56,034 nucleotides of DNA, from assembly GCA_944323685.1 (NCBI GenBank), contig CALUTJ010000018.1:1-56034 (forward strand). Direction: 5' to 3'. The translations under genes were made by a program, and so were the position numbers. The stretch comes from Candidatus Gastranaerophilales bacterium (GTDB taxonomy: Bacteria; Cyanobacteriota; Vampirovibrionia; Gastranaerophilales; Gastranaerophilaceae). The notes under the pieces are model-generated. The model ran no database searches. It worked only from the letters and a program-made list of their open reading frames with translations, and was not told the origin of the DNA. Positions 15,477 through 19,383 of this stretch are shown here, piece by piece. Numbering within the stretch: the stretch's first letter is position 1; each line of letters opens with the position of its first letter.

Positions 15477-16247
15477 TTATTGTGTCGGGTAAAAGACATT
15501 CTCTAAACTTTGATAGTTTTATTCTTAAAACTTTTACGCCTATTTTCTCAAACTCTTTTGTTCCATACCTGAATTCTGACTTTTCTTTAATTTGTCCGTT
15601 TTCAACAAATTTTTTGACTCTTTTGTCAGAAGGTGCAACAACATATAATTCTACATCTGGGCAGTTTTCTTTTATATATTCAGCAGCGGGTATAAAGTCA
15701 CTGTCTGTGCTAAATAGATATATTCTGTTGTAATGCCCATCTCTAGCCGTATTTATCAGGTCAACAGCTATTTTTACATCTGTTTTTTTTTCTTCAACCT
15801 TTTTGAAATATTTATATTTTCTGTATTAATTTCTTCTCCACAGTAGCATTTAACCTTATTCGGCAAACTAATATTGAATTTATGAATAAAAAACATTTGG
15901 TTGCATTTATCACAATCAATATAACAGTTTAGTTTTTCACTTCGAGGTTTGAATTTCCCTTCTATTACTTCTATACCTCTAGCTTTTAAAGCACCGGTAT
16001 ATGCTTTATGGTTTGCAATACTCTTGTGTGGTCGTCCTTCTGAATCCAACTTATAATTATTAATTGCTGTATAAAAGTTGATTTTTAATTCGTCATAACT
16101 ATGCTTTTTTATGATAACATTCTTGACAACCTTGTCATAATCAAGCCATTTCAAATGATAAGTGTATAAAACATCTTTCATGTGTTGACAAATTGCATGA
16201 TAGTAATTGAATCCATCTATGAATACAGCGATATTATTTTTTTTCAT
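15451..16247 (-). pseudogene. NYN-domain ribonuclease-like protein, split by a frameshift in a run of nine A
   Basis: The first frame (16247 to 15774) gives 157 residues starting MKKNNIAVFIDGFNYYHA, the NYN/PIN-like (LabA, DUF88) signature with catalytic Asp11. A zinc ribbon (CYIDCDKC ... CYC, about residues 108-140) is inserted. It stops right after a run of nine A (T9 on + strand, 15783-15791). Adding one base, or a -1 ribosomal slip, opens a frame to 15451 that encodes the missing half, including LFSTDSDFIPAAEYI with the second catalytic Asp pair. Full length would be about 265 residues. It may be a pseudogene, a phase-variable gene, a slippage product, or an assembly error. Ribosome binding site AGAGGAA. 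Confidence 0.75.
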
Positions 16248-16698: not shown

Positions 16699-17853
16699 AT
16701 GCAAAATACCGGTATTAAAGAAAAAGAATTATTGCAGCAATTCTTTCAAGATAAGAGAGTAAAAAAATTACAACAGACTATTTCAGAATTAAGAAAAAAT
16801 GAAAATGAAAAATTTAATATTTTCAAAATTTTAAAGCTGGATAAATACGAAATTCGCCATTCAAATTTCTTAGCTTGGCTGTTAAATCCGAAAGGAAGTC
16901 ATAACTTGGGAGATACTTTTTTTAAACAGTTCTTTCAAGTAGCACTAAACGAAAATGTAGAAGATATTAATACCTCTGATATCAGAATAGAAACTGAATA
17001 TCCTGCTAATGTCGAGGATACGACACGTCGTATAGATATTCTTATCTATTCTGTCCAAACCCCTGAGTTTGTATGTGTGATTGAAAATAAATACGGTACA
17101 GAAGAACACACTGGTCAGTGTCAAGCTTATAAAACTTTTATAGAAAAATATTCAAAGTTTCGGAATTATTCCAGAAAAATTTATATATTTTTAGATTTAA
17201 ATGTACCTACAGATGAACAATTAGATAAAAAATTGCAAGGATATAAACCGATTACCTACAGAGATATATTTTATATTTTGTCGGAAATGCAACAAAATTT
17301 AGGTCAGTATAACTACACAGGTGAGACAATTAAACAATATACGGAAATTATCAAGGAGAATTATACTATGATTGATAAAGAAATAAAAAAACAATATCGA
17401 ATAATTTACGATACCTACAAAGAGGTATTTGATATTTTTGAAGAATATCAAAAAGAATTTTTAAACGATATTTTTGAAATAATGAAAAGTGTAGTTGGTT
17501 GTAAAACAATAAAATTAAAGATGTTAGAAAAGGAGCCTTTAATAAACTACATAGACAAAAATAAAATTAGCTGTGGTGTTCGCTTCGTGCCAGACGAAAT
17601 TGATATTCCTGAATCTAATAACCTTTCTTATCTTTTCCCATTTTTCTTTCTTGAATATAATAAAGAGTTAACGCTATCTATTTGTACAACGTTTGATTTT
17701 AAAAAATGTACAGTAGAGGGGGAAATAATTACAATAGACATAAAAAACAAATCAAATGAAGAGATACAAAATGCCATATTAGATGCAATTGACTCCTTAA
17801 AAGATAGAATACTATCAATTTATAAAGTATCAAAAATTAATATTAAAAATTAG
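16699..17853 (+). CDS. PD-(D/E)XK nuclease superfamily protein (PDDEXK_4-like)
   Basis: A 384-residue protein whose N-terminal half carries the restriction-endonuclease fold: a conserved HSNFLAWLLNP segment (residues 54-63), then RRIDILI (Asp113), VCVIENK (Glu129-x-Lys131) and a following Gln in QCQAY. Order and spacing match the family often annotated as PD-(D/E)XK nuclease with defence-like neighbours. The C-terminal half (about 230-384) is helical and unassigned. A/T-rich codon use and its position downstream of tRNA-Asn point to acquired DNA. A DNA target and a defence role are inference. Ribosome binding site AAAGAAG is present. Confidence 0.82.
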   Translation: MQNTGIKEKELLQQFFQDKRVKKLQQTISELRKNENEKFNIFKILKLDKYEIRHSNFLAWLLNPKGSHNLGDTFFKQFFQVALNENVEDINTSDIRIETEYPANVEDTTRRIDILIYSVQTPEFVCVIENKYGTEEHTGQCQAYKTFIEKYSKFRNYSRKIYIFLDLNVPTDEQLDKKLQGYKPITYRDIFYILSEMQQNLGQYNYTGETIKQYTEIIKENYTMIDKEIKKQYRIIYDTYKEVFDIFEEYQKEFLNDIFEIMKSVVGCKTIKLKMLEKEPLINYIDKNKISCGVRFVPDEIDIPESNNLSYLFPFFFLEYNKELTLSICTTFDFKKCTVEGEIITIDIKNKSNEEIQNAILDAIDSLKDRILSIYKVSKINIKN

Positions 17854-18402: not shown

Positions 18403-18431
18403 TTGACAAGCGTGAGGTTGTAGTAAATAAT
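18403..18431 (+). promoter_or_regulatory. Strong promoter for a small RNA
   Basis: TTGACA (18403-18408), a 17-bp spacer and AATAAT (18426-18431). It points at the short transcript ending at the terminator at 18483-18515; no ORF follows in this direction. Confidence 0.7.
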
Positions 18432-18438
18432 GTAAATA

Positions 18439-18515
18439 CAGGGTGGCAGTTTACCAGACTGCCTGATACATTGAGAAGACTGCGGCTCTTATCTATTTAG
18501 GTGAGAGCCGTTTTT
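18439..18515 (+). ncRNA. Small RNA, candidate antitoxin of a type I toxin-antitoxin pair
   Basis: About 77 nt between the strong promoter at 18403-18431 and a rho-independent terminator. It contains a GGCAGT/ACTGCC hairpin. Its 3' end runs antisense across the last nine codons of the short hydrophobic peptide gene on the minus strand, so the two RNAs are convergent and complementary, as in the Fst/par RNAII-RNAI arrangement. The start and end are predicted, not mapped. Confidence 0.55.
18483..18515 (+). terminator. Rho-independent terminator of the small RNA
   Basis: Arms CGGCTCT (18483-18489) and AGAGCCG (18504-18510) followed by TTTTT. The stem also covers the 3' end of the minus-strand peptide gene, but there is no T run for that strand. 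Confidence 0.8.
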
Positions 18516-18569
18516 CAATATGAATAGAATCAATAACACTAGTATTAGAGTTAGATTGATGTTTTCCAT
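18489..18569 (-). CDS. Short hydrophobic peptide, candidate Fst-like type I toxin (26 aa)
   Basis: The open frame from 18569 encodes 26 residues: a polar start (MENINLT), an uninterrupted hydrophobic helix of Leu/Ile/Val/Phe (about residues 6-18, LILVLLILFIL) and a polar, basic tail ending in NR. GAAAGGGGG precedes the ATG at normal distance, so it should be translated. Size, layout and the convergent small RNA match membrane-acting type I toxins of the Fst/Ldr or holin-like kind. A hairpin (CCAACC/GGTTGG) in the upstream leader could hide the ribosome binding site. Toxicity is inferred. Confidence 0.55.
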   Translation of the reverse strand: MENINLTLILVLLILFILKNGSHLNR

Positions 18570-18691
18570 ATCAGCCCCCTTTCTAGCGGGAACCAACCCG
18601 AAGACTACGTTATAATTGTAGGTTGGATTCAATTAGAAAAGGTACCTTTTAACCCTGTAGGCTTATTTTACTATAACCTGCTTTGTGGTGT

Positions 18692-18898
18692 CTATTTTTC
18701 AATGTCTAACGATGATATATCAACAACTTTGTCGCTATAACTGTAATCAATTTCAATCAAATCAAGTTCATCAATAACGGATGCAGCTTCAATCTGTTGT
18801 TTATTTTGCAAATACTTGCTTGTCCACATAACGCCGTTGTCCGCTATTATACTTGCAAACAAGAGCATTGCCCCCTGTTTACCGATTAATATATTAGG
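18692..18898 (-). pseudogene. Truncated gene fragment (C-terminal 68 codons)
   Basis: An open stretch of 68 codons plus stop on the minus strand. It reads as sensible protein (for example GKQGAMLLFASIIADNG, then an acidic tail IDELDLIEIDYSYSDK). An ATG at 18868 would give 58 residues. Upstream it runs into a TGA exactly where the tRNA-side repeat unit begins (18899), so it is most likely the 3' remnant of a larger gene cut by the repeat. No family recognised. Confidence 0.4.
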
Positions 18899-19061
18899 TC
18901 ATCTTTCGTATTTGTCTCCTCGGGTGAAGGACTCCGTTGGCGTAGCAGCAAAACGATTGAATATCGTTTTGCGTGTTGTATGTATAAAAAATGAAGAATA
19001 ATCTAAAGCCAATGGAGGGAAGAACCTGCGAGGATTGCTGCGCAATCCGAGTCGGTGAGAG
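18899..19061. repeat. tRNA-side tandem repeat unit 1
   Basis: Unit shared with 19221-19383 at a period of 322 bp. It starts with TCATCTTT, contains CTCCTCGGGTG (the reverse complement of the tRNA-Asn 3' end), a palindrome with arms AAAACGAT/ATCGTTTT, a second with arms GGATTGC/GCAATCC around a 3-nt loop (19032-19048), and ends GAGTCGGTGAGAG. The interval up to unit 2 also holds GTCAC/GTGAC and GATTTGC/GCAAATC hairpins. Confidence 0.8.
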
Positions 19062-19204: not shown

Positions 19205-19230
19205 AAAAGATGACCTAAATCATCTTTTTT
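19205..19230. terminator. Rho-independent terminator between tRNA-side units
   Basis: Arms AAAAGATGA and TCATCTTTT with a 6-nt loop and T/A runs on both sides. Its right half forms the beginning of repeat unit 2, and half of it is also seen at the start of unit 1. Confidence 0.7.
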
Positions 19231-19383
19231 AAAATGGCTCCTCGGGTGAAGGACTCCGTTGGCGTAGCAGCAAAACGATTGAATATCGTTTTGCGTGTTG
19301 TATGTATAAAAAATGAAGAATAATCTAAAGCCAATGGAGGGAAGAACCTGCGAGGATTGCTGTGCAATCCGAGTCGGTGAGAG
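19221..19383. repeat. tRNA-side tandem repeat unit 2
   Basis: Nearly identical to unit 1 over about 160 bp. At 19233-19248 it shares 16 consecutive bases with the sequence at the 3' edge of the intact tRNA-Asn gene (from 19438), and the match continues with a 2-nt gap into the T-arm (GGACTC). It therefore looks like a duplicated or relic tRNA 3' end. Confidence 0.8.

Follow-up and report, generated by a model that had tools for sequence, protein, structure and literature searches.

A small convergent gene pair of Candidatus Gastranaerophilales, in which a structured RNA almost certainly silences a 26-residue membrane peptide, is very probably a type I toxin-antitoxin module that acts like par of plasmid pAD1, i.e., by antisense repression of a membrane-active peptide. 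The sequences themselves show the layout, the coding nature of the peptide frame, the structure of RNA II and the matching of repeats within loci. In the proposed mechanism RNA I, read from the minus strand, would encode a single-span membrane peptide of 26 residues that should arrest growth when overproduced, and RNA II, read from the plus strand by the stronger promoter, would be the antitoxin. RNA II would recognize its own RNA I by a short locus-specific repeat through which its spacer pairs with the RNA I leader; pairing would then spread over the overlap of ~35-40 nt across the peptide 3' end and the terminator stem, and would keep ribosomes off a Shine-Dalgarno (SD) sequence that is probably already partly folded away. 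The window, i.e., the whole stretch of DNA analyzed (56,034 nucleotides), lies within a 2.3-Mb genome bin.

Layout and conservation of the locus

The features of the locus are collected in Table 1. The TTGACA-17-AATAAT promoter and the terminator described in the earlier note were both found in place, as was the 26-codon hydrophobic peptide with its GGGGG ribosome binding site, and the small RNA itself was borne out at a length closer to 78-79 nt than to the 77 nt first given. The peptide frame reads into the RNA II terminator, whose stem doubles on the other strand as coding sequence for the peptide C-terminus, and the two RNAs are convergent and overlap across the peptide 3' end in the par-like arrangement previously recognized. 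RNA I is predicted to start near 18658 (ACAGGGTT), and the predicted 5' ends of the two RNAs, both presumably transcribed, are alike (ACAGGGT). With 15 promoter-like sites in the region vs. 6.9 expected, the RNA II promoter taken alone is weak proof; it is retained in nearly all copies found by BLASTN, a set unselected for it, and is near-invariant across the wider locus set, mostly pattern-selected for that very promoter. A bidirectional terminator is not supported, since a U-run follows the shared stem only on the RNA II side (mean of 4.7 T in 8 nt vs. 2.7 on the peptide-RNA side). The two promoters also have in common, as an inverted repeat, the 13-nt word AGGTTrTAGTAAA (18415-18427 and 18667-18679), present too in several same-genus copies and possibly a common operator or the outcome of gene conversion.

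Table 1. Coordinates of the module's features in the window.
Feature	Position	Strand	Details
RNA II promoter	18403..18431	+	-35 TTGACA at 18403, 17-nt spacer, -10 AATAAT 18426-18431; 11/12 consensus
RNA II, proposed antitoxin small RNA	about 18438..18516	+	5' ACAGGGTGG...; 78-79 nt
5' stem-loop SL1 of RNA II	18445..18463	+	GGCAGTTTACCAGACTGCC; both partners changed in 4/6 pairs
Direct repeat copy A in RNA II, proposed recognition site	18475..18484	+	GAAGACTGCG
RNA II intrinsic terminator	18482..18515	+	13-pair stem 18482-18511, then T's
Hydrophobic peptide, 26 codons, proposed toxin	18489..18569	-	MENINLTLILVLLILFILKNGSHLNR; ATG 18569-18567, stop TAA 18491-18489
Shine-Dalgarno of peptide	18575..18579	-	GGGGG; G-rich stretch conserved in relatives
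Leader hairpins	18585..18626	-	CCAACC/GGTTGG stem and alternative UCGGG/CCCGA stem, beside copy B
CCAACC/GGTTGG arms	18626-18621 and 18598-18593	-	
Direct repeat copy B	18600..18609	+	GAAGACTACG; in peptide mRNA leader on - strand
Candidate promoter of peptide mRNA (RNA I)	18665..18694	-	TAGACA 18694-18689, 18-nt spacer, TAAAAT 18670-18665

A 341-bp BLASTN query had matches at 32 homologous places among 99 related genomes (E < 1e-10, window included), and the unit conserved in this set extends roughly from promoter to promoter (~290 bp). The promoter-plus-5'-end pattern returned at least 109 stretches from GTDB genomes, nearly all from Gastranaerophilales, and BLASTN, pattern scans and nhmmer together yielded, with duplicates removed, at least 113 distinct full loci in Candidatus Gastranaerophilales; as most of these came from the pattern demanding the RNA II promoter and 5' end, the conservation of both is partly by construction in this set, and both are conserved also in the unselected BLASTN set. 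A chance arrangement is excluded by the conservation of the locus at 32 homologous places and in this larger set, and the conservation of peptide and antisense pairing among relatives, proposed earlier as a check, proved strong.

A covariance model of RNA II, matched by the window's RNA II at 1.5e-15, was applied to 288 genomes sampled from the host's family; 107 of them had matches, up to 8 per genome, and these cover 26 of the family's 41 genera. One clear member, with the peptide MNDINLSLFLIILLILCIKNDAHLKR and a matching repeat, occurs in another family of the same order (G070); the sole covariance-model match outside the host's family in a phylum-wide draw (G336) was without peptide. The homologous contigs carry the names Candidatus Gastranaerophilales or Melainabacteria, which by taxonomy are non-photosynthetic gut relatives of cyanobacteria. 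Seven candidates outside the order (L040, L066, L081, L120, L136, L140 and G336) were set aside as chance or unrelated matches lacking the peptide. Another recurring promoter and leader of phage or Clostridia type, TTGACA...TATAATAnnnnTACAGGGTGAG(GGAA), also without peptide, was seen in L144-L150 (IMG/VR), L120, L136 and L081. In a divergent subtype (L033 in G048:C82 and L167 in G070:C3) RNA II starts with CGGGGCGG and the mRNA 5' end is altered to match, i.e., the 5' ends of both RNAs change together. Rfam gave no match at gathering in the module region, and a relaxed cut-off returned one meaningless match (E 2.8).

Coding and structural signals

The peptide frame is kept in 109 of the 113 loci, the first, second and third codon positions having entropies of 0.76, 0.22, and 0.86 bits. 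The sense frame has a pN/pS of 0.387, as compared to at least 0.54 in the other five frames and a minimum of 0.463 among 200 column shuffles. These patterns point to coding selection on the peptide, which, given selection on its frame, is probably translated. Residues 6-18 form a 13-residue core with a mean hydropathy of +3.28, the N-terminus is slightly acidic, the tail is basic in most loci, and the helix is mostly followed by Lys-Asn-Gly. In size and hydrophobicity it is thus the small hydrophobic peptide looked for in type I toxin-antitoxin systems, its membrane location being predicted. A 29-residue reading occurs in 13 loci, most with a different tail (e.g., KTALTRKNKNR); the tail being both variable and read from the terminator stem, this suggests that the RNA may dictate its sequence, charge counting for more than order.

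Among 82 distinct peptides none contained Trp and none the [PDST]xxxG motif. The Fst_toxin family (Pfam PF13955) was found in none of 10 carrier genomes, with a Lactococcus lactis control that scored, though below the model's cut-off; the peptide profile matched nothing in Pfam (Fst included) or NCBIfam, and no peptide sequence match was obtained in the PDB at E ≤ 10. Since there is no profile likeness to any known toxin, toxicity is argued here from size, hydrophobicity and layout. These features could also describe a conserved non-toxic small membrane peptide, such as a membrane-protein regulator or a stress peptide, checked by an antisense RNA, as the toxin label itself draws only on layout and hydrophobicity and the coding signal attests to the importance of the peptide but says nothing of killing. 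We regard this reading as unlikely: a patchy distribution, tandem copies that differ in specificity, and location at prophages favor selfish or addictive modules over a housekeeping peptide, and the variation of the C-terminal tails suggests that a charged membrane helix is the sole requirement.

The RNA expected to hold this peptide in check folds with a z of -4.76, a value equalled by none of 200 shuffles. Across 51 distinct sequences SL1 and the terminator have 94.6% of their cells paired, dropping to 37-46% in slid controls; double changes are present in 12 of 18 pairs, and none of 500 shuffles reached any of five measures. As judged from these alignments, RNA II is a structured RNA under selection, and both of its hairpins covary.

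The leader of the peptide mRNA, on the basis of single-sequence folds of 46 leaders, has the SD paired at a mean of 0.78 and the repeat unpaired at 0.63, above the average of 0.50, with a mean MFE z of only -0.69. The CCAACC/GGTTGG hairpin near the SD, already noticed in the window, has its arms present and 83.6% of its cells kept across relatives, with 11 double changes (14 of 500 shuffles were as high), and the short UCGGG/CCCGA hairpin competing with it keeps 95.4% of its cells, with two compensatory cases; the covariation of the SD-sequestering stem did not exceed that of shuffles. We regard the leader as probably structured, with two competing folds either of which may be the repressive one.

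Direct repeats as candidate recognition tags

The decisive feature of the module, absent from the earlier note, is the direct repeat placed in the RNA II spacer and in the RNA I leader. In the window, copies A and B can pair through nine Watson-Crick pairs plus one G-U, and cofolding of the RNA pair gains about 38 kcal/mol over the separate folds. The repeat begins with GAR, is mostly 7-12 nt long, and is variable among loci while being matched inside each locus. The longest shared words of 57 non-redundant loci sum to 501 for cognate partners vs. a maximum of 370 in 20,000 permutations, a sum that locus relatedness could inflate, tandem arrays being the better control. In such arrays (L036, L043, L046, L087, and L100, plus two copies on L130) the longest match averages 9.35 nt between cognate and 4.13 nt between non-cognate partners, the only non-cognate matches equal to cognate ones being those of two L046 copies bearing the same tag. 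The duplex energy is -22.0 kcal/mol for cognate vs. -16.3 kcal/mol for non-cognate partners. The leader copy of the repeat terminates, in 103 of 105 leaders, at a YUC[GA] consistent with the YUNR pattern of U-turns, which may form such a turn. Matched tags would keep neighboring modules from cross-reacting: with a repeat that varies from locus to locus but is matched by its own partner, several modules per genome could coexist without cross-protection.

Selection on the module is indicated by three independent signals, i.e., the peptide frame, the RNA II covariation and the matched direct repeat. They also bear on the reading of the locus as a non-coding, MITE-like mobile repeat or a chance arrangement, with peptide frame and promoters coincidental, to which a multi-copy unit of this size and two promoters alike as an inverted repeat could lend themselves. 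That reading is refuted, as the codon pattern, the RNA covariation and the matched repeats are impossible from a neutral repeat, and the module is moreover single-copy in the window's own genome.

Known systems, genomic setting and significance

In the par locus of the Enterococcus plasmid pAD1 (Fst / RNA I / RNA II) the direct repeats DRa and DRb are poorly conserved between loci and are thought to set specificity, and peptides of the Fst/Ldr family bear a P/D/S/TxxxG motif inside their membrane helix, while between helix and charged C-terminus a Trp is conserved (Val in the Fst prototype of pAD1) (PMC7472228). The Gastranaerophilales module resembles par in having a short putative toxin mRNA and a small antisense RNA with convergent promoters and 3' overlap at a terminator, paired direct repeats read in opposite directions and variable between loci, and, probably, leader structure near the SD. 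It differs in its host, which is not a Firmicute, in a longer RNA II with a covarying 5' stem-loop, in repeats located upstream of the SD beside a conserved YUCG, in showing no sign of a bidirectional terminator, and in an unrelated peptide of 26 residues that lacks the W or V signature and [PDST]xxxG and whose tail is in most cases basic, not acidic as in Fst. The earlier description of the locus as Fst-like holds therefore for the par-like architecture, as layout and direct repeats indicate, and fails for kinship with the Fst peptide in all features tested: the module is par-like in working and, having no Trp, no [PDST]xxxG, and no match in Pfam, NCBIfam or PDB, is not a member of the Fst/Ldr peptide family. 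We incline slightly towards the view that this is a lineage-specific family, in which an architecture like that of par evolved independently on an unrelated peptide, and that it was spread by prophages and islands, forming tandem arrays of orthogonal modules with specificity from a coevolving repeat of ~10 nt.

Two other systems invite comparison, each as described in the accessible part of its source. Like the Gastranaerophilales module, msoT1/msoA1 of Microcystis aeruginosa is a type I candidate in a cyanobacterial group, but its host is photosynthetic, MsoT1 has 63 residues with two predicted membrane helices, and that part of the report mentions no direct repeats (PMC12390103). The aapA/IsoA system of Helicobacter pylori likewise combines a hydrophobic peptide mRNA, SD-hiding structures and an antisense RNA, with no direct-repeat specificity tag noted in the portion available (PMC6733600); in contrast to what is described there, a metastable 5' hairpin was rejected for the Gastranaerophilales RNA I, its energy being no better than that of shuffles (mean z -0.10).

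Tail, terminase or endolysin genes of phages lie within 4 kb of 20 of 103 loci, the most frequent phage-gene neighbor cluster being at a median distance of 125 nt, and a Cro/CI-type regulator cluster occurs near 11 of the 103. This proximity is what a phage lysis or superinfection gene (a mini-holin or exclusion peptide with an antisense timer) on Gastranaerophilales prophages would predict; however, most loci, the window's included, have no tail, terminase or endolysin neighbor in reach, no copy was found in IMG/VR, by a peptide profile scan or in the phage collection, and tandem arrays would be odd for a lysis gene, which makes this explanation highly improbable in comparison with a par-like toxin-antitoxin module. 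A viral origin was likewise rejected, the promoter pattern having returned from IMG/VR seven matches, all of the other promoter type and without peptide, and seven plasmid matches were 36-nt chance matches, six of the seven annotated as replication initiator genes.

The window's copy is flanked on one side by a variable stretch containing two PADLOC candidate-defense matches and on the other by a tRNA-Asn. The same tRNA-Asn position holds the module in G002 (L003/L173), and the copy of G010 (L002) has its tRNA-side flank in common with the window's copy; at the same site in G013 and G006 the covariance model found no module. The PADLOC matches, both beside the module, are HEC-09 (15774-16247, minus strand, 6.5e-9) and PDC-S26 (16699-17853, plus strand, 3e-48), the latter having a PD-(D/E)XK nuclease fold by Pfam. 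Between module and tRNA-Asn two direct repeats (18900-19060 and 19235-19382) are 98.6% identical, and G013, G006 and G018 have repeats like these at the same tRNA. The 3' end of the tRNA-Asn overlaps a 26-nt word that is found again at about 19223-19248; this looks like the attachment-site duplication of an island. The module may serve in addiction or stabilization of mobile DNA, and so hold prophages and islands in place, a tentative suggestion of which we are more doubtful than convinced.

A 2025 paper, in its accessible part, confines the type I systems known until then to Proteobacteria, Firmicutes and Tenericutes, and presents msoT1/msoA1 as the first candidate in Cyanobacteria (PMC12390103). 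The open full-text literature on Melainabacteria and Gastranaerophilales, subscription papers lying outside this scope, yielded no type I system, in agreement with the earlier remark that no such locus was known in the lineage, and Gastranaerophilales were met together with toxin-antitoxin only in passing mentions (the FNU1 phage genome and a coral metagenome). The tiny gene-pair family is previously undescribed, and its architecture and specificity logic are already known from par/Fst. With at least 113 distinct copies, it resides in a common, hardly cultured gut order, at a size that gene callers easily miss. As the natural arrays offer dozens of paired specificity tags, they allow a direct test of an old question, namely how short antisense repeats separate sibling toxin-antitoxin modules.
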